Positions 5,934 through 62,579 of a stretch of 64,000 bases of DNA are shown in pieces. This DNA is from Sulfurimonas sp. HSL3-2 (GTDB taxonomy: Bacteria; Campylobacterota; Campylobacteria; Campylobacterales; Sulfurimonadaceae): NCBI RefSeq assembly GCF_039645965.1, contig NZ_CP147917.1, positions 1,736,001 to 1,800,000 of the forward strand. Reading direction: 5' to 3'. Under the pieces are notes generated by a model, which worked only from the letters and a program-made list of their open reading frames with translations, ran no database searches and had not been told where the DNA came from. Made by a program: the position numbers and the translations under genes. How positions within the stretch are numbered: the first letter of the stretch is position 1; each line of letters begins with the position of its first letter.

Positions 5934-6560
5934 TTACGATACGTATCCTAAAAGAGTCTCACCGGCTCTTAATTGGTCACCTACATGTAAAGAGAGTCTA
6001 CATGTAATAGGAAGTCTGATAATAGTTTTTCCTCTTGTCATGACACCGTATCTTTTCCCTTGGTTTATCTCTTGATCAGAATGCAGATTTACAGTTATAT
6101 CATCTACGCTGTTATCTAAGATATGTTCTACATGTACAATATGTTTTTTATTATCTTCAAACTCGACTTCAAGCTTTTCATTAAGAAGCATAGACTTTCT
6201 GATATCCGTAGATAGTCTGGCACCTTTTCTGATATGAAATGATTTTACTTTTGCTAAAAATGGAGCTCTTAATATCGAAGTATCGAATAAAGAAGATTTT
6301 ACTACGACTTCATATCCGTTGTCCAGACTGTTGATCGCAGTGACTTTTCCATCAACCGGACTCACTAAAGAACCGTTTTGAAAATATGGGACTTCACGTT
6401 CAGGATTTCTATATATGAAGACAAAGAATGCAAGGGCAAGAAGGCTGAGGAGTTTAAAAAATCCCCATCCTAAAAGAGTAAAAAGAATGAAAAAGGCAGC
6501 AGCGACTGCTATGTGCTTGTGCCCGGCTTTTGAAACTACAAAAGTATCATTCATCATCAT
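5934..6560 (-). CDS. Phosphatidylserine decarboxylase-like protein lacking the pyruvoyl serine
   Basis: 208 residues. Two membrane segments near the N-terminus (about 16-50) are followed by the Psd-family landmarks YRNPERE (50-56), SPVDGKV (67-73), an LRAP element (97-100) and GDQLRAGETLLG (194-205). In active enzymes a Gly-Ser is self-cleaved to create the pyruvoyl cofactor; the matching stretch here reads YGVMTRGKTIIRLP (171-184), with no GS. The His usually preceding NRAP is also replaced (DTSILRAP). I infer a catalytically dead homologue with a structural or regulatory role in phospholipid synthesis. It overlaps the ftsH end by 14 bp and abuts pssA. A true psd would be needed elsewhere. 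Confidence 0.8.
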   Translation of the reverse strand: MMMNDTFVVSKAGHKHIAVAAAFFILFTLLGWGFFKLLSLLALAFFVFIYRNPEREVPYFQNGSLVSPVDGKVTAINSLDNGYEVVVKSSLFDTSILRAPFLAKVKSFHIRKGARLSTDIRKSMLLNEKLEVEFEDNKKHIVHVEHILDNSVDDITVNLHSDQEINQGKRYGVMTRGKTIIRLPITCRLSLHVGDQLRAGETLLGYVS

Positions 6561-8550
6561 CTTTTTTCTCTTCCTCTATTTTAGAACGCTTCTTAGTCAT
6601 CGTAGCGTCCTCTTTAAGTTCATCTTCGATCTCATCACTTACAGGAGCGACTTTACTTTCGATGTTGTTCTCTTTTTCAAACTCTACAATGATCGAACGG
6701 ACATCTTCACCCGTAATATTTTCTTTATCATACAGTAAAGAGACCATATTTTCAATAGCCCCTGCATACTCTTTAAGACTAGTTTTTACAAGTTCATAGT
6801 GCTCGTTTAGACTTGTTTTAATAAACTCATCCATACTCTCAGCCATCTTTTCGCTGAACTCTCTAGCAGCAGGTGCTCCGCCGCCTAAGAATGATTGACG
6901 CTGTTTTTCTAAGACCATAAGTCCTGCAACATCACTCATACCGTATACCTGAACCATAGATTTTATGATATCAGTCGCACGTTCAAGGTCATTACCTGCA
7001 CCTGTAGATATCTCGCCTAAGAACACCTCTTCAGCTGCACGTCCTCCAAGAAGAACATCGACTTCAGCCCATAGTTCATGCTTCTGTGCCATGAACTTGT
7101 TCTCTTCAGGAGTATTGAGCGTATAACCAAGAGCCGCAAGCCCGCGAGGAACGATAGATACTTTAGAGACTTTCTTCGCGCCTTTTGTGATCTCAGCCAT
7201 AAGTGCATGACCACTTTCGTGATAAGCAACGATCTTCTTCTCTTTTGGATTGATACGGCGAGATTTTTTTGCAAGACCTGCAATAGCACGTTCGACCGCT
7301 TCAAAAAGATCTTTCTGGCTCACACTTTTCTTATTGTTACGTCCCGCTAATAGTGCACCCTCGTTGATGACGTTTGCAAGGTCTGCACCTGCTAAACCTG
7401 CTGTGATACGTGCGATCTCTTCAAGATCGACGTCATCTGCAAGTTTAACGCCTCTGACATGGACTTTTAAGATCTCTATACGGCCTTGAAAATCCGGTTT
7501 GTCTACAAGTACCTGTCTGTCAAAACGACCCGGACGCATCAATGCACTGTCAAGTACCTCAGGACGGTTTGTCGCTGCCAGGATGATGATCGGAGTATCT
7601 GTACCGAATCCGTCCATCTCTGCAAGAAGTTGGTTCAATGTCTGTTCACGCTCATCGTTTCCACCCATCATACCGCTTGCTGCACGGCTTTTACCGATCG
7701 CATCGATCTCATCGATGAAGATGATAGAAGGAGCATCTTTTTTCGCCTGTTCAAAAAGGTCACGCACACGTGCGGCACCGACACCCACGAACATCTCTAT
7801 GAAGCTTGAACCGCTTACCGAGAAAAACGGGACTTCAGCTTCTCCTGCAACAGCTTTTGCAAGAAGCGTCTTACCCGTACCCGGACTACCGACTAAAAGA
7901 ACACCTTTAGGGATCTTTGCACCGAGCTCTACATATCTTTGAGGGTATTTTAAAAAGTCTACTATCTCTAAGACTTCCTCTTTTGCTTCTTGAGCACCTG
8001 CGACATCGTCAAACTTTGTCTTCGGTTTTTCAGAGTTTACAAGTTTTTTAGAGTTCCCCATTCCAAGGATACCGCTGCCCATGCTTTTTTGCATACGGCC
8101 TGCAAAGAACATCCATATACCGATGATGATCAAAAATGGAAGCAGCCATCCGAACATCTCTGTAAACCAGTTTGATTCGCTAAAACCCGAGTAGTCTATG
8201 TTCTCTTTATCAAGAAGCGGTACTAAAGTGTTATCATTACCGACGATACGCGTCGTATATGAGACTTTTCTTCCGTCTTCCATGCCGATAGCACGGATGT
8301 ATGTCTGTCCGATCTCAACTTTTTGAACTTTTTTCTCAGATACTAATGTCTTTAGTTCGGAGTAGCTGACCTGTTTATTTTTAACAGTTCCGCCGATCGA
8401 TGAGTTCATTGAACCTGTAGCTCCCTGGTCACCGATAAGTGCTTTAAAGATCAAGATTATAACTACTGAAAATATTGCAAAAGTTATAAGTGGATTGTTA
8501 TTGAAGAAGTTGTTATTTTTATTGTCGTTTTTATTGTCGGGAGACCCCAT
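6547..8550 (-). CDS. ftsH: ATP-dependent zinc metalloprotease FtsH
   Basis: 667 residues. Two membrane helices (about 21-38 and 134-150) flank a periplasmic domain; the cytosolic part has the AAA+ module with Walker A GSPGTGKT (221-228), Walker B IIFIDE (276-281), the second region of homology [20 protein letters not shown] (326-345) and the zinc protease motif HESGH (444-448). It degrades misfolded and short-lived membrane and cytosolic proteins as a hexamer. Walker A has Ser where Pro is usual, which should be tolerated. The gene sits between prmA (6 bp gap) and the psd-like gene. Confidence 0.98.
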
Positions 8551-51597: not shown

Positions 51598-52275
51598 CTA
51601 TTCGAACTTATCCTCTTTCAAAGCTTTTAAAAATGTCTTATAAGTATAACGGTTAAAGATATACTCTTTTGCTTTAAAAAGCGTGTCAAACATGATCTCC
51701 CACAGCATTGTAAAATTTTTATCCGTACGGACAGCACAAAGCTGCTGCTGCATCTTACGCTCTAACTCGCTGATCGCTCTCGCGTGAATAGCATACTCTT
51801 TGATTATCTCATACTCCACACCAACCTTTTGAAATGAATCGACAAGTCGGATCATGGTACTGTCTTTGTCTGTAAACTCATTTTCACTCAGAGGGATCAC
51901 GACCCCGTCTTTTAAAAGTTTATCCAAAAGCTCTCTATCTACTTTAAAGTGAGTTATAAACTCCTCTTTTGAATAATAGTTTTCATCTTTTGAAACAAGA
52001 CTCAGCGTGTTCATAAGCGGTTCTATCATCGTAAAAGATGTAGCAAGAGACCTATTTTTATTTTTGAGTGCTATCTTGATATCATCATTTGTACTGCCGA
52101 TGCTGTTTTTCATGTATTTTATATATTTTATAAGCTCAAGATGTTCATCATTATAGACATGCACATTGGACTTTATCTTCTTCGCTTCAGGCAGCATTCC
52201 TTCCCGTATATAGTAAAGTATAGTCGATTTGGGGACACCTGTAAGTGAAACAAGCTGTGATATTTTATATTCCAT
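51598..52275 (-). CDS. MerR-family transcriptional regulator
   Basis: 225 residues. N-terminal winged helix of MerR type (YKISQLVSLTGVPKSTILYYIREGMLPEAKK, then YNDEHLELIKYIKYMK). The remaining ~150 residues are helical and lack the Cys pattern of metal-sensing MerR proteins, so the effector is unknown. It is divergent from the AhpD-like gene, 95 bp apart, and may regulate it. Confidence 0.88.
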   Translation of the reverse strand: MEYKISQLVSLTGVPKSTILYYIREGMLPEAKKIKSNVHVYNDEHLELIKYIKYMKNSIGSTNDDIKIALKNKNRSLATSFTMIEPLMNTLSLVSKDENYYSKEEFITHFKVDRELLDKLLKDGVVIPLSENEFTDKDSTMIRLVDSFQKVGVEYEIIKEYAIHARAISELERKMQQQLCAVRTDKNFTMLWEIMFDTLFKAKEYIFNRYTYKTFLKALKEDKFE

Positions 52276-52370: not shown

Positions 52371-52901
52371 ATGGCACACATAAAACTACCGGAATTTGAA
52401 GAGATGAGTCCAAGCATACAGGAAAAAGCAAGACCCATTTTAGAAAAGACAGGACAGCTGGGAGAGATATTCAAACTGATAGCATTAGATGAAAAGATAT
52501 ATTTTGCGACTGATATGATGGTTCAAAAATATCTTTTAGACCAAACAACACTTTCATATGACATCAAAGAGGCTATCGCTCTGCTTATCTCTAAAGAAAA
52601 CGGATGTAAGATGTGTGTCGATGTGCATAAAAGTATAGCAAAGATGCTCGGACTCACAGAAGAGAGAATCGAAGAGATCTTACAGGGAGTCGAAAGTATC
52701 AAGACGACAGAAGCTGAAAAAGCACTTCTGAATTTTTGTATCAAAGCTTCTAAAAAAGATAACTACAAGATACAAAAACATGAGATAGATGCACTAAAAG
52801 AATTTGGATATAATGATGTTCAAATTCTTGAAGCCGTTGCTATAACGGGCTACTTTAACTATATTAATACTCTATCTAACGTATTTGCACTTGGTGAGTA
52901 A
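52371..52901 (+). CDS. AhpD-like carboxymuconolactone decarboxylase-family protein
   Basis: 176 residues, helical. The redox motif CKMCVDVHKSIAKMLG (CxxC plus His) is that of AhpD-like alkylhydroperoxidases, which reduce peroxides or support peroxiredoxins. Upstream GGAAGATGAAATGG gives a ribosome site. The divergent MerR regulator suggests stress-inducible control. Confidence 0.9.
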   Translation: MAHIKLPEFEEMSPSIQEKARPILEKTGQLGEIFKLIALDEKIYFATDMMVQKYLLDQTTLSYDIKEAIALLISKENGCKMCVDVHKSIAKMLGLTEERIEEILQGVESIKTTEAEKALLNFCIKASKKDNYKIQKHEIDALKEFGYNDVQILEAVAITGYFNYINTLSNVFALGE

Positions 52902-52931: not shown

Positions 52932-53741
52932 ATGGTAAGAGAAATTGTTACATATCCGACGACTCCAAGTCTTGAGTATGGTGCGAATGTCAGACATTTT
53001 AATGATGAACTATTTGGTGTCATAGAAGATCTAAAAGACACGATGGAAGCAAATCATCTAGATGCTCTTTCAGCGTTTCAGATAGCTTCACCGCTATCTA
53101 TAATCGTAATCAAACAAGATAACGGAGAATTTTTAGAGATCATTAATCCAAGGATCATAAAAAGAGAGGGAAAAATAAATCCGACTGAAACAACAGCATA
53201 TTTCCCTGGACTCAGTGCCACTACAACACGCTATGAGAAGATCAAAGTTATGTATGAGGACAGAGATCAAAATCAAAAGTTCCTTGATGCCGAAGGTGAC
53301 TTAGCTGTCACGCTTCAAAGAAAACTAGACTATCTGTTTGGTGCGAACTTTAGAGTTAGAATGGATGACGCAGAGAAAAAACTTTTTGACTCAAAACTGG
53401 AGTTCGGAACAGATGCCATAATGAAAAACGATTGTCCGACTGTCTTTAAAAGAGACAGGATCCTGCTTGCATTTAGAATACTGTTCGCTATCGGATTTGT
53501 AGCCCTTGGTGCGAAGTTCTTTATAGACGAAGCAAGTATTGCAACTCTTATAACTGTAGAAAACAGTATTATGCTTGCAATGACTGCGTTGCTGATATTC
53601 TACTTCTTTTACGCTCAGTACGAGGGTAAACAGTACAAACACTGTACATCTTGCCAGATAGGAAATATCATAGGCTCTACAGCGATCGCTTTTATTAGAA
53701 TCGTTATCCTATTTGCCGCTAACTATTTTCTTCTTTGGTAA
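52932..53741 (+). CDS. Membrane-anchored peptide deformylase-like pseudoenzyme
   Basis: 269 residues. Residues 1-140 follow the peptide deformylase plan: VTYPTTPSLEYGANV, a motif-1 equivalent DALSAFQI (44-51; active enzymes GxGLAAxQ), FLEIINPRI, a motif-2 equivalent YFPGLSA (90-96; EGCLS), RYEKIKVMYED, and a motif-3 equivalent QRKLDYLFG (129-137; HExDHLxG). The metal Cys, both His and the catalytic Glu are all missing. Three membrane helices (about 177-197, 208-228, 245-267) with a CTSC pair (C238, C241) follow. A deformylase role is therefore very unlikely; function unknown. Its end overlaps convergent lgt by 33 bp. Confidence 0.82.
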   Translation: MVREIVTYPTTPSLEYGANVRHFNDELFGVIEDLKDTMEANHLDALSAFQIASPLSIIVIKQDNGEFLEIINPRIIKREGKINPTETTAYFPGLSATTTRYEKIKVMYEDRDQNQKFLDAEGDLAVTLQRKLDYLFGANFRVRMDDAEKKLFDSKLEFGTDAIMKNDCPTVFKRDRILLAFRILFAIGFVALGAKFFIDEASIATLITVENSIMLAMTALLIFYFFYAQYEGKQYKHCTSCQIGNIIGSTAIAFIRIVILFAANYFLLW

Positions 53742-54536
53742 AAAATAAAACCACAGTACCACTGCAAGCAGCGCCATGGATAGACTTAGTGTCTGTCCAA
53801 GCGTAATCGTATCACAGCAGATGTATCCTATCTGAACATCAGGTGCTCTAAATATCTCCGCAACCGCTCGAAGTATCCCGTAAGAAAATGCATATAAGAG
53901 TATCAGTTCGCCGTCAAATCTTTTATATCTTCTGTACATGTAGATGATGATAAATACAACAACACCCTCTAAAAACGCTTCATAAAGCTGAGAGGGATGA
54001 CGCAGGACTCCATTTACATAGATACCCCAGCTGACATCAGTGACACGCCCTACAAGTTCCTGGTTTAAAAAGTTACCTATGCGCCCGAAGACATACCCAA
54101 GAGGGACTGCAAGAGCTACAATATCCATAAGCTTGCCAAACCCGACTTTGTTCTTTTTACTAAAGAGGTAGGCACCTATCAAAAATCCAAAAAGTGCACC
54201 ATGATAACTCATACCCCGGATCCCGACGAACTCGCCCTCTTTAAAAGGATTGAATATCTGCCACGGATGTCCGATGTAATAAAGCGTATCGGGATCATAA
54301 AAGAGGATATATCCCAGACGTGCTCCGAGTATCACACCTATCTCTACATAGATAAAAAAACTGTCAAGATGCTCTTTAGTGATATCGATATTGTCTTTTT
54401 CCACTATCCACTTTGCCATATATAAGGCTGTGACAAGAGCTAAGACATACATCAGTCCATACCAGTGAACCGGTATAGAAAAAAGATGAAAAGCTATCGG
54501 GTTAAAATGCTCATAGATATCGTTCCAAAACTGCAT
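53709..54536 (-). CDS. lgt: Prolipoprotein diacylglyceryl transferase
   Basis: 275 residues, about seven membrane helices. Transfers diacylglycerol to the lipobox Cys of prolipoproteins, the first step of lipoprotein maturation. Signatures: GIRGMSYHGALFGFLIGAY and the Lgt box GRIGNFLNQELVGRVTD. It overlaps the Fe-S gene upstream by one base (TAATG). Confidence 0.97.
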   Translation of the reverse strand: MQFWNDIYEHFNPIAFHLFSIPVHWYGLMYVLALVTALYMAKWIVEKDNIDITKEHLDSFFIYVEIGVILGARLGYILFYDPDTLYYIGHPWQIFNPFKEGEFVGIRGMSYHGALFGFLIGAYLFSKKNKVGFGKLMDIVALAVPLGYVFGRIGNFLNQELVGRVTDVSWGIYVNGVLRHPSQLYEAFLEGVVVFIIIYMYRRYKRFDGELILLYAFSYGILRAVAEIFRAPDVQIGYICCDTITLGQTLSLSMALLAVVLWFYFLPKKKIVSGK

Positions 54537-57425: not shown

Positions 57426-58175
57426 ATGAAAAACAAGAGGGTGTTAATTGTAGAGGACGATGAAGTAACTGCAATGAACCTAAAGATGTCTCTGGAAAAA
57501 CAGGGATATTCTGTCGCGTCGATAGCAGACGATGCTACAAGTGCAAAAAGCAAGATCAAAGTATATGATCCGGATATAATTATTATTGATATATCGCTCC
57601 AAGAGAGCAATGACGGGATCATGTTAGCAAACTATATACGTGAAAAACAGCTTATGCCGTTTATATTTTTAACAGCTCATACAGATGATCATATCATTGA
57701 AGACGCAAGTAAGACAGAACCATACGGGTATATTATAAAACCATTTGATCCGGCGAATCTTCATGCGACAATACAGATGGCTCTTTATAAATATGATCAG
57801 GAAAAGAAAAGAAATGAGAGTCTTGATTCGCTAAAAGTCGATAAACTGAACTTGGAAAAACTTCTTTACAGTAAAAAGATGGTGGACAAGCCTATCGTTC
57901 CTTTCGGTGACGGATATCATCTTGATATTAGTGTCTGTGAGACTTTTTATAACGGGAAAAAGATCAAACTGACTAAAAAAGAGAACTCTTTTATCCGTCT
58001 CTTAGTAGCACAGCTTGGTCTAGTCGTCAGTTTTGAACAGGCGATCAGTTATGTCTGGGAAGATGACGGAGCTACTGAAAACAGCGTTCGTACACTTGTA
58101 TGGAGACTAAGAAATAAACTTCCCACGGATATCATCAAAAATGCATCCGGTATGGGTTACTATATAGAAGATTAA
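57426..58175 (+). CDS. Response regulator, receiver plus winged-helix domain
   Basis: 249 residues. Receiver with VEDDEVTAM, phospho-acceptor Asp in IIIIDISLQESNDG, FLTAHT and IIKPFD; a linker; then an OmpR-like winged helix (LTKKENSFIRLLVAQLG, ENSVRTLVWRLRNKLP, GMGYYIED). Convergent with the hybrid kinase, overlapping by 4 bp; the two are probably partners. Confidence 0.9.
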   Translation: MKNKRVLIVEDDEVTAMNLKMSLEKQGYSVASIADDATSAKSKIKVYDPDIIIIDISLQESNDGIMLANYIREKQLMPFIFLTAHTDDHIIEDASKTEPYGYIIKPFDPANLHATIQMALYKYDQEKKRNESLDSLKVDKLNLEKLLYSKKMVDKPIVPFGDGYHLDISVCETFYNGKKIKLTKKENSFIRLLVAQLGLVVSFEQAISYVWEDDGATENSVRTLVWRLRNKLPTDIIKNASGMGYYIED

Positions 58176-60802
58176 AAGTTTTTAATCTTCATATACTCCT
58201 TTTCTATTTGTTCGATACACTCTTCGTAGTCATAAGTATCATTTTCCTCTTTTGAGCTTATCTCCATCTCATGTGCATATTTCTGAATCTTTTCCAGCCT
58301 AAAATTTGCACTCGAACCTTTGATGGAGTGGGCCAATCTTGATATATTATAGTAATTTCTCTGCGCTATCTCATCTTTGAGTTTAGGAAGAGTATCATCC
58401 ATTTTTTTGATGTAAATCCCTAACAATACTTGTAACTGTTCCGAATCAAGCTGAAGTTCATCTTTTAATGTCTCAAGATCAAAGTGTGCTCCGCTTTCCT
58501 CTTCATCGCCCCTCTCTAAAGAGTCCTCAAAGACCATCTCCAACTCTTTTAAAATAATCGGTTTTCCAAGGAAATAATCACATCCGCTCTCCAGGCTTTT
58601 CTCTTTTGAACCTTTGATGACATTTGCTGTCAATGTCGATATAGGCGTATGCTTTAGATTCTCTGCTTCCTCATAGTACCTTATATCATCTATCGCTTCA
58701 AAACCATTTTTAATAGGCATCTGATCATCCATCAGGACAAGATCATATCTGTTCTCACGGAACATCGCTACTGCTTCGACCCCGTTTGCTGCAATATCGT
58801 AGGTAACTCCATACTTATCCAAAATAATCTTTATAAGCTCCTGATTCGCTTCATTATCCTCAGCGACCAAAATATGTCCGTTAAACCTTTTAATATTTTT
58901 TGAACTGCTTTTTTGCTGGTTATACGCTTCGCTCAGACCTAAAGCATCTAACGTCCTGTCTCTGAGTTTTGTCAGATAAATAGGAAAGCAGAGGTTGGAT
59001 ATATTATTTATAAGATCATAACTATCATCCATATACTCCATTATGGCTATGGAAGGTTTATTTTTCTGAATGACCTGATATCTCAGGGCGTCATCAAGAT
59101 CGCTGTCCATAAAGTAGAGCAGATCGTAATGATTCTGCTTAATATCTTCTATAAGATTGAGTTCGACACCGATCTGCATATAATACTTTTTAAATATATC
59201 AAGTTTTCTTTTATCTGTCTTCTCATTTACATAAAAAGCGATCTGCTTATCTTGAAGCATCTTGCAGTCTAGACTCAGCATCTCGCTATTGACTACGACA
59301 ATAGGAAGATTCAAAGTAAACTTACTGCCTTTTCCTACCGTTGATTCTACATCAATATATCCGCCCATTATTTCAGCCAGCTGTTTACATATCGAAAGTC
59401 CCAGACCCGTTCCGCCGCTTCGTTTTATAATGCTGTTTTGTGCCTGTGTAAATGCATCAAATATCTTGCTCATATCGCTTTGTGCTATTCCGACACCGGA
59501 ATCCTCGACAGATATTTTAATATACCCATCTTCATATATAGCATCGACTTCAATTATCCCGTTAATAGGAGTGAATTTTATGGCATTACTTAAAAAATTT
59601 GAAACGATCTGACCGAGTCTTAACTGATCGGCTAATATCTCTGAAGGGATTGTCGGGTCTAAAAAACTGATGATCGTTATCTGTTTTTGATGTGCTGAAG
59701 CGACAAACAATTCCATGGTATGGGACAAGACCTCTTCCAAATTAAAGATCTTCGGTTCGATCGTAAATTCACCGCTTCTCAGTTTTGAAAAGTCCAGGAT
59801 ATCGTTGATGATATTTAAAAGGTTCTCTCCGCTGTTATGGATAATATCAAGATAATTTTTGTGTTTTAGCGAAATATTTTCATCTTTTAAAAGTGATACG
59901 AATCCAAGTATAGCATTCAAAGGAGTTCTAATCTCATGAGACATATTGGAAAGGAAATAGTCTTTTGCTTTGTCTGCTTCTATCGCTTTTTGTCTGGCAT
60001 CTATCAGTTTTGTTACTTCATAACCTATGGCCATATACTCTTTTTTGCCCGTAAAAGGGTCTTCTATAGGTATTATCGATGTATCGATATAAAAGTAACC
60101 GCCATCCTTGCTTTTGTTTTTAATAGTCCCGGTAAAGATCTGGTTAGACTGTATGGTGTCCCAAAGCTTTTTAAAAAATGCTTTAGACATATCTTCATGG
60201 CGCATTACGCTGTGAGCTCTGCCTATAAGTTCATGCTCTTCATACCCGCACAGTGTCATAAACTTTGAGTTCACATGTGTAATAAATCCGTTTTGATCGG
60301 TTTTTGATACAAGAGCACTCTCATTTAATGCATAGATATACTGTTCTAAAAGCTCGACATTCTTCCCTATCTCAATATCTTTTTCATAGATCGTATCAGA
60401 ATATATTTCCAAGACTTTTGAAAAGTTTTTATCAAATACATAACTGATCTCACTAAAAAGCTGTTTTGTATTAATATCTTTTTCGTATGAATACTCCACC
60501 ATAGAGAGTTTAAAATGACTGCAGATCATAAAAAGCTCTTTTGAACTTATATTTCTATCTTTTAAATATTTTAAAAACTCTTCGACTACAGGACAATCTC
60601 CTATCTGAACGACACCTTTTATTACCCCCATAAAATAGTCAAATACATTATCGGCATAGTTTTTTATAAAGACCTCTCTGTCTATATTGTGATGCAGAAG
60701 TATAGATTGCGGAATAGAATACTCTACCCAATTTGAGATGATAGATGATTTTCCATTTTCTAAAGTCGATATATTTGATTTCAAATTTAAAAGTTCATTC
60801 AT
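58172..60802 (-). CDS. Cytoplasmic hybrid histidine kinase (PAS-HK-REC-Hpt)
   Basis: 876 residues with no membrane helix. A helical N-terminal region (1-150) of unknown kind that may be a globin-like or signal-input domain; PAS (about 155-270, ALVSKTDQNGFITHVNSKFM); H-box NMSHEIRTPLNA; ATPase GTGLGLSICKQ; a receiver-like segment without a clear Asp (about 525-640); a true receiver with LVLMDDQMPIKNG; a C-terminal Hpt with ISRLAHSIKGSSANF. A complete phosphorelay in one chain. Likely partner: the convergent response regulator. Confidence 0.92.
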   Translation of the reverse strand: MNELLNLKSNISTLENGKSSIISNWVEYSIPQSILLHHNIDREVFIKNYADNVFDYFMGVIKGVVQIGDCPVVEEFLKYLKDRNISSKELFMICSHFKLSMVEYSYEKDINTKQLFSEISYVFDKNFSKVLEIYSDTIYEKDIEIGKNVELLEQYIYALNESALVSKTDQNGFITHVNSKFMTLCGYEEHELIGRAHSVMRHEDMSKAFFKKLWDTIQSNQIFTGTIKNKSKDGGYFYIDTSIIPIEDPFTGKKEYMAIGYEVTKLIDARQKAIEADKAKDYFLSNMSHEIRTPLNAILGFVSLLKDENISLKHKNYLDIIHNSGENLLNIINDILDFSKLRSGEFTIEPKIFNLEEVLSHTMELFVASAHQKQITIISFLDPTIPSEILADQLRLGQIVSNFLSNAIKFTPINGIIEVDAIYEDGYIKISVEDSGVGIAQSDMSKIFDAFTQAQNSIIKRSGGTGLGLSICKQLAEIMGGYIDVESTVGKGSKFTLNLPIVVVNSEMLSLDCKMLQDKQIAFYVNEKTDKRKLDIFKKYYMQIGVELNLIEDIKQNHYDLLYFMDSDLDDALRYQVIQKNKPSIAIMEYMDDSYDLINNISNLCFPIYLTKLRDRTLDALGLSEAYNQQKSSSKNIKRFNGHILVAEDNEANQELIKIILDKYGVTYDIAANGVEAVAMFRENRYDLVLMDDQMPIKNGFEAIDDIRYYEEAENLKHTPISTLTANVIKGSKEKSLESGCDYFLGKPIILKELEMVFEDSLERGDEEESGAHFDLETLKDELQLDSEQLQVLLGIYIKKMDDTLPKLKDEIAQRNYYNISRLAHSIKGSSANFRLEKIQKYAHEMEISSKEENDTYDYEECIEQIEKEYMKIKNF

Positions 60803-60917: not shown

Positions 60918-61085
60918 TTAGTGGTGGCTTTTGCCAACAACTATGATCATCTTGATGTTTATAGCTATAAAACGTAAAAACTGCCAAATAACACAAGTTC
61001 TCATCCATTTTGCGAATGGACCAGGTGTCATTGTAGTAAAGTTATTTCCGTAAGCTTTGATATTTTTTTCACCATATTTTGACAT
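60918..61085 (-). CDS. 55-residue protein encoded behind sqr
   Basis: ATG at 61085 preceded by AAGGAAAGAAT, a strong ribosome site; stop at 60918 just before the terminator. Basic and amphipathic: MSKYGEKNIKAYG, then a PGPFAKWMRTCVIWQFLRF segment and a hydrophobic stretch FIAINIKMIIVVG ending KSHH. It is 24 bp after sqr, so cotranscribed. It may sit at or in the membrane next to SQR. No known family recognised. Confidence 0.75.
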   Translation of the reverse strand: MSKYGEKNIKAYGNNFTTMTPGPFAKWMRTCVIWQFLRFIAINIKMIIVVGKSHH

Positions 61086-61109: not shown

Positions 61110-62579
61110 TTATTCTGGAATTAGAGTCCAGCCCGGATTTAGTTTAGCTTTGTAGATAAACAGGTGGTGTAGGATATGTTTAATCCAGTGACCTGCAAGA
61201 CCGATCTCACCAAATGTATAATCTGTATCACGACCAGTTCCTGGATATTTTTCAAAATCCGGTACAACTGGGTAGATAGTCATAGCTGCAGCAGTACCGT
61301 TAAACAGACCTTTACCAGCTGATGCAACACATGCAGCACCCATCTCAGCCATTGAAGCTTCATGTAAATGTGCGCCCTCACCTTTAGTGATCAAGTCACA
61401 AACACTGCCCGCAACCGCTTTACCGATAATACCTGAAGGCATACCTGTACGTGGTGGAGTAGGATTGATCGGTGTTCCGTTTGGTGAAGTCATCGGTTTA
61501 GATATACCGTGTGGAGGAGCGAATGCAATACCACAAGCAAACATATTTTTGTATGTAGGATTTTGGTATGTACGAGGCCAGTCACTAGCTTTCCAGTTTT
61601 CATAAGCACCTGCAGCATAGTTTGCATCAACTTTCATAAATCCGTTTGGAGCAAATACTGTAGCAGTGATATCTGAACCGTCTTTAGCGAAAGCTTTTAA
61701 ACCGACACCTGCAAACGGAGGAATAAGCATTGCGAAATCGAACTCTTTCTCACCCATTGAACCATCTAGTAGTTCATATGTAACTTTGCCTTTTTCAACT
61801 TTGTTAACGTGTGCACCGATAGTCCAGTCAACATTACGCTCAGCAAATAGTGACTCAGCAAAGATTCTAGAACTAACTGCAAATCCCATAGCTTTCATGT
61901 GAAGTCCACCAACACCGAAATCGCCTAGGAAAGACTCGTTAGAGATCCATTGTAGATCAGCTAAATCACGAACACCCGCTTTTTTCAGTTCATGTTCAAT
62001 GTTGAAGATGTACTCAAACGCCGCACCTTGACATGTACACATACCGTGACCTGTACCGATCAGGAATGTTTGACGCTCACCTTTTTTCATCTTCTCTATA
62101 CATTTTTGGAACTCTTCATTTGCATGAACAGCATGATCCGCAGTACAAACAGAAACCGTAAATTCGCCTAAACCGTTAGCATCACCAAGACCTGGGGTAG
62201 CAGCAAAATTTAGTTTTGGACCAGTTGCGTTGATCAAATAGTCATATTCGACTTCTTCACTCTCACCAACTTTGTTTTGTCCAGTATATTCAACAGTAAC
62301 GAAAGGTTTGTCAGAACCCTCTTTACCTTCAGGATTAATAGAAACTGCTTTTGCTTGTTTATAATTTATACCTGCTTTTTGGTATACAGGTGCTAAGTCA
62401 AAAGTAACATCCTCTTTACTCATCTCTCCAACACCAACCCAGATGTTTGAAGGAATCCAGTTCCACTTTGCATTAGGTGTTACAACAACAACCTCATGCT
62501 CAGAACCTAACCATTTCGCTGCAAATGTAGCGGCTGTATGACCGGAAACCCCTCCACCAAGAACAACTAATCTTGCCAT
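61110..62579 (-). CDS. sqr: Sulfide:quinone oxidoreductase
   Basis: 489 residues from the ATG at 62579, which has GAGGAG eight bases before it; an upstream TTG (62597) is less likely. FAD-dependent disulfide oxidoreductase: dinucleotide fold VVLGGGVSGHTAA (5-17), and Cys at 145, 160, 181, 183 and 349 that can form the catalytic redox centre (CTADHA, GMCTCQGAA, FACGIAFAPPHG). It oxidises sulfide to sulfur or polysulfide at the membrane and reduces quinone. The His-rich C-terminus (HWIKHILHHLF) may bind membrane. Subtype not assigned. Confidence 0.92.
   Translation of the reverse strand: MARLVVLGGGVSGHTAATFAAKWLGSEHEVVVVTPNAKWNWIPSNIWVGVGEMSKEDVTFDLAPVYQKAGINYKQAKAVSINPEGKEGSDKPFVTVEYTGQNKVGESEEVEYDYLINATGPKLNFAATPGLGDANGLGEFTVSVCTADHAVHANEEFQKCIEKMKKGERQTFLIGTGHGMCTCQGAAFEYIFNIEHELKKAGVRDLADLQWISNESFLGDFGVGGLHMKAMGFAVSSRIFAESLFAERNVDWTIGAHVNKVEKGKVTYELLDGSMGEKEFDFAMLIPPFAGVGLKAFAKDGSDITATVFAPNGFMKVDANYAAGAYENWKASDWPRTYQNPTYKNMFACGIAFAPPHGISKPMTSPNGTPINPTPPRTGMPSGIIGKAVAGSVCDLITKGEGAHLHEASMAEMGAACVASAGKGLFNGTAAAMTIYPVVPDFEKYPGTGRDTDYTFGEIGLAGHWIKHILHHLFIYKAKLNPGWTLIPE

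Follow-up and report, generated by a model that had tools for sequence, protein, structure and literature searches.

A membrane-tailed pseudo-deformylase and its gene association with sulfide:quinone oxidoreductase in Sulfurimonas and its relatives

The deformylase-like gene of the window

The window, by which we mean the whole stretch of 64,000 nucleotides from Sulfurimonas sp. HSL3-2 that was analysed, carries a gene for a deformylase-like protein fused to a membrane tail, referred to here as the pseudo-deformylase. An AhpD-like gene and a MerR-family regulator lie on its upstream side, and a gene for sulfide:quinone oxidoreductase (SQR), accompanied by a small gene, is found further along the window (Table 1). 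The 3' end of the pseudo-deformylase gene, 53709-53741, overlaps by 33 bp a convergent ORF (53709-54536, reverse strand) that, judged by eye, resembles prolipoprotein diacylglyceryl transferase (lgt).

Table 1. Features of the pseudo-deformylase gene and of associated genes in the window
Feature	Position	Strand	Basis or remark
MerR-family regulator, divergent from the AhpD-like and pseudo-deformylase genes	51598..52275	-	53% identical homologue beside the L091 pseudo-deformylase
AhpD-like (CMD family) gene, 30 bp upstream of pseudo-deformylase	52371..52901	+	Place kept in relatives of the window's clade
CDS of membrane pseudo-deformylase	52932..53741	+	ATG start, 269 aa; ORF, Pfam, AlphaFold2 model
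Deformylase-fold domain, residues 1-160	52932..53411	+	PF01327 at 2-149; Z 24.5 over 1-159 against 2ew5
Degenerate motif 1, LDALSAFQ, residues 43-50	53058..53081	+	Gln50 retained, glycines gone; family alignment
Degenerate motif 2, ETTAY, residues 86-90	53187..53201	+	Metal-ligand Cys replaced by Thr88, Glu86 retained; alignment
Degenerate motif 3, QRKLDY, residues 129-134	53316..53333	+	HExxDH replaced by R130, K131, Y134; alignment
Linker and membrane tail, residues 161-269	53412..53738	+	Helices 174-194, 200-233, 236-268; model and hydropathy
Cys168 of conserved C-P pair, before first membrane helix	53433..53435	+	97% conserved
C238-T-S-C241, turn between helices 2 and 3	53643..53654	+	Both Cys invariant
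Gene for a small membrane-associated protein (55 aa); in relatives it separates SQR from pseudo-deformylase	60918..61085	-	Conserved, unannotated
SQR, 489 aa, usual operon partner of the family	61110..62579	-	Homology

The Pfam profile PF01327 (Pep_deformylase) is covered end to end by the N-terminal domain, with an E-value of 7.8e-28, and a sequence search of the PDB finds the H. pylori deformylase 2ew5 (E 6.2e-16); the deformylase models of NCBIfam match below their cut-offs, TIGR00079 for example at 60 bits against 103.95. An AlphaFold2 model, built on 87 family members, has a mean pLDDT of 89.6 and a pTM of 0.61, and when it is compared with known structures by Foldseek and VIA-align the top matches are deformylases, 2ew5 superposing over 159 residues with an rmsd of 1.5 Å and about 30% sequence identity. 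The deformylase fold claimed in the original prediction is borne out by the profile match, the confidence of the model and the structural match, and the comparison with Def that it proposed gave a deformylase-like rather than an unlike structure. A chance resemblance is ruled out by the same profile and structural matches.

Catalytic residues and membrane tail

Within this fold the metal site has been lost. The consensus motifs GxGLAAxQ, EGCLS and QHExDH of deformylases are represented here by L43-DALSAF-Q50, E86-TTA-Y90 and Q129-RKLD-Y134. In the numbering of the E. coli enzyme the substitutions are Cys90 to T88, His132 to R130, Glu133 to K131 and His136 to Y134, so that every metal ligand and the catalytic glutamate are gone, as had been claimed from the sequence. 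That all catalytic motifs are erased, as was also claimed, is too strong, because Gln50, Glu86, Arg100, Gln129 and Asp133 remain, conserved in the family alignment at 93%, 100%, 100%, 99% and 100%, respectively; moreover, the segment YFPGLSA that had been quoted as motif 2 lies just downstream of the true motif, ETTAY. The losses are common to the 102 aligned homologues, none of which regains the full ligand set, and the position of the catalytic glutamate is occupied by lysine, glutamine or methionine across the family.

Compared with peptide deformylase (Def/PDF; PF01327), the pseudo-deformylase thus retains Gln50, the motif-2 glutamate, Arg100 and Asp133 but lacks the three metal ligands and the catalytic glutamate, carries three additional membrane helices, is linked to SQR, and exists beside the ordinary enzyme rather than in its stead. 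An ordinary deformylase with EGCLS and QHExDHL is encoded elsewhere in the window's own genome (G000:C1:2147003-2147479), and each of 41 genomes sampled from the phylum gave a strong deformylase match; replacement of the ordinary enzyme is ruled out on both counts. In a tree of the deformylase domain, 102 pseudo-deformylases separate from 38 ordinary deformylases of the phylum with a support of 100 (a quick method, with SH-aLRT as the only support measure). A scan of contigs, reaching close relatives only, gave matches that are all Campylobacterota-type records.

Of 398 genomes sampled from the order, 118, spread over 24 of 85 genera, carry the gene, and the copies are almost all full length, tail included. 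Eight positions of an 87-member alignment (P9, R21, N72, E86, R100, D133, C238 and C241) show no variation. For close pairs with computable dS, dN/dS ranges from 0.026 to 0.149 for the deformylase domain and from 0.047 to 0.127 for the tail; the ratios for the window's own nearest pairs are rough, since dS is saturated. Judged by these comparisons, the family is under purifying selection, with the deformylase domain no less constrained than the tail. That the gene is a functionless remnant of a duplicated deformylase, decaying or confined to a lineage, would agree with the missing catalytic residues, but we regard it as extremely unlikely given its retention at full length in 118 of 398 genomes, the invariant residues, the low dN/dS (0.03-0.15) and a kept gene order; decay itself is ruled out by dN/dS and the invariant residues. 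By alignment and model the protein fits the description of a pseudoenzyme, its fold under purifying selection and its catalytic residues gone, as in pseudoenzymes generally (review PMC5106787).

Could the altered site have acquired a different chemistry? A new, metal-free active site might be formed by R130, K131 and Y134 together with Q50 and E86, and act for example on sulfane sulfur. The replacement residues are conserved rather than random (R130 86%, K131 83%, Y134 77%) and purifying selection on this domain is strong, but the replacements at the former metal site do vary among homologues (QQ, QM, F, M) whereas purely structural residues are invariant. To our knowledge no such activity is known for the deformylase fold, and we consider a new activity of this kind very unlikely.

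The retained features might instead serve binding. Along the lines of the original prediction, the protein would be a membrane-tethered reader of nascent or formylated N-termini that leaves them uncut and perhaps escorts particular proteins to the membrane. In its favour, the fold is preserved and so, in the model, is the location of the substrate cleft, as are Gln50 and the set Glu86/Arg100/Asp133. The glycines of motif 1, which in active deformylases form part of the edge that binds formyl-Met, are replaced, however, and the gene shows no linkage to translation genes, its neighbours being genes for SQR, a small membrane protein, and AhpD-like and DsrE-like proteins. Such a reader seems quite improbable.

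The three fused membrane helices are confirmed by the helices of the model and by hydropathy, and the CTSC pair stands at residues 238-241, both cysteines being invariant in 102 homologues. Analysis of hydropathy and charge gives a net positive charge for the segment before helix 1 and for the loop before helix 3. On the strength of this loop charge, the deformylase domain and the three cysteines C168, C238 and C241 would lie on the cytoplasmic side.

Gene neighbourhoods and SQR

At 67 loci with enough flanking sequence, the same-strand upstream neighbour of the pseudo-deformylase is mostly a flavoprotein related to SQR. PDB matches of this partner are SQRs only, among them the A. aeolicus enzyme 3hyv (E 2.2e-39), and it keeps the three functional cysteines, which align with C124, C156 and C347 of 3hyv. 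Its best NCBIfam match, to type III, reaches 39 bits, so far under the cut-off of 525 that we assign it to none of the types I-VI. All sequenced Sulfurimonas are reported to carry a type IV SQR (review PMC4584964), which may be the SQR of the window; the SQR section of that review does not mention the small partner protein or the pseudo-deformylase.

The association with SQR is close. Both genes are present in 117 of the 398 genomes and neither in 205, with SQR alone in 75 and the pseudo-deformylase alone in a single genome (G351, counted as lacking SQR at the threshold used). Fisher's test gives p 1.5e-47 for the 398 genomes with relatedness ignored, a value that overstates independence because the genomes are related. 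The two genes share a strand, the pseudo-deformylase lying 203-571 bp downstream (median 274), in 95 of the 118 genomes, and are apart in about 20. Apparent opposite-strand genes between them overlap SQR itself, and we regard them as spurious. SQR does not depend on the pseudo-deformylase everywhere, since the 75 genomes with SQR have no detected pseudo-deformylase. That the conserved C-terminal GWTLIPE of SQR is a grip for the pseudo-deformylase found no support, as most SQRs from genomes with no detected pseudo-deformylase retain it as well.

Between the two genes in these relatives lies a small gene, whose products, of about 48-67 aa, share invariant R29, C31, Q35 and N43 and a KSH end. The small protein has no match in Pfam or NCBIfam, and its model, of moderate confidence (pLDDT 71), has two helices, 23-30 and 32-53. 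The small gene precedes the pseudo-deformylase by a median of 72 bp, and a terminator scan found a hairpin that might end transcription in 17 of 72 such gaps; after the window's own small gene the scan found none, yet a hairpin of CGAATCGGG and CCCGATTC is visible in the sequence. Because the small gene usually follows SQR even in genomes without a detected pseudo-deformylase, SQR and the small protein would form the core, to which the pseudo-deformylase is often added as a third part. One locus, L091, carries a second pseudo-deformylase preceded at 11 bp by a small gene of its own, with no SQR in the stretch, implying that small gene and pseudo-deformylase travel together; this second pair and the MerR homologue alongside it occupy L091:5300-6278 on the reverse strand and 6444-7130 on the forward strand. 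Behind the second SQR of one genome lies a diverged small ORF without the KSH end (L150, G010:C1:1383500-1388500).

In the window itself the arrangement differs. SQR and the small gene lie 7.4 kb from the pseudo-deformylase, which does not follow them; after them comes instead a histidine kinase, the same kinase that is the gene after the pseudo-deformylase in several relatives. The region 57426-60802 holds a response regulator on the forward strand and a large hybrid histidine kinase on the reverse strand. As many relatives have homologues of this two-component pair after the SQR cluster, it may belong to the sulfide locus.

The window's pseudo-deformylase falls in a clade nested among SQR-linked copies in the domain tree, and the MerR and AhpD-like neighbours recur in its relatives. 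A DsrE-family gene, absent in the window, stands between AhpD and the pseudo-deformylase in L020, L034 and L036. The DsrE-like genes at L034:2310-2753 (reverse strand) and L036:1026-1475 (forward strand) are tightly packed, lying 8-25 bp upstream of the pseudo-deformylase (8 bp in L034), with a 4 bp overlap between AhpD and DsrE genes in L036. In six genomes (G023, G083, G121, G173, G331 and G373) a copy of the window's clade coexists with an SQR-linked one. At L097, upstream of 5069, genes for a DUF4395 membrane protein and an ArsR-family regulator precede a divergent pseudo-deformylase copy. To judge from their gene content, the AhpD-like, DsrE-like and DUF4395/ArsR neighbourhoods hint at sulfur.

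This variety of neighbours might mean that the work is done by the tail, where C168, C238 and C241 would make a membrane thiol or metal site for sensing or relaying the redox or sulfur state on behalf of several partner systems, SQR being one case, and that the deformylase domain only holds the tail. The invariance of C238 and C241 in all aligned members, the 97% conservation of C168 and the occurrence of the gene with AhpD-like, DsrE-like and DUF4395 genes would all fit. Against it stand the nearly complete co-occurrence with SQR (117 of 118) and the constraint on the deformylase domain, at least as great as on the tail, which suits a passive holder poorly; we think it rather unlikely that the tail acts in this way.

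A candidate role in sulfur metabolism

The interpretation that we put forward, and to which we give about an even chance on this sequence evidence, is that the membrane-anchored pseudo-deformylase is an accessory protein in the metabolism of sulfide or sulfane sulfur. An accessory role in sulfide oxidation is suggested because the gene usually clusters with that of SQR. The dead deformylase domain would be a binding platform on the cytoplasmic side, held to the membrane by the tail, and platform and small protein together could dock the peripheral (monotopic) SQR. The pair C238/C241, with C168, might either receive sulfane sulfur from SQR or hold a structural metal. The window's genus would have lost the SQR-linked copy and retained the paralogue beside the MerR and AhpD-like genes; this type of paralogue, accompanied in relatives by a DsrE-like sulfur-transfer gene, is likely to be a variant of the same module under stress control.

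A more specific form of this accessory role, in which SQR, the 55-aa protein and the dead deformylase make up a three-part membrane module and the cytoplasmic cysteines of the dead deformylase accept sulfane sulfur from SQR and pass it on, has in our estimate perhaps one chance in a handful. The conserved gene order can also mean common regulation rather than contact.

Searches among open-licence papers gave no description of a membrane-tailed deformylase pseudoenzyme or of one tied to sulfide oxidation, and nothing relevant on deformylase with SQR or with hydrosulfide. We appear to be dealing with a pseudoenzyme of the deformylase family whose membrane tail and partner are both new, possibly noticed earlier elsewhere. 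Annotation of such proteins, where there is any, as peptide deformylase misleads both on function and in surveys of drug targets.

If the accessory role is correct, bacteria that dominate vents and sulfidic sediments have recruited the fold of a translation enzyme to partner sulfide oxidation at the membrane, and two partner proteins of this group's SQR would have gone unrecognised. How SQR is attached to the membrane without an export signal, and what becomes of its sulfur, would then be directly testable. Should the three-part relay also hold, an abandoned translation enzyme would have become a subunit of a respiratory sulfur system.
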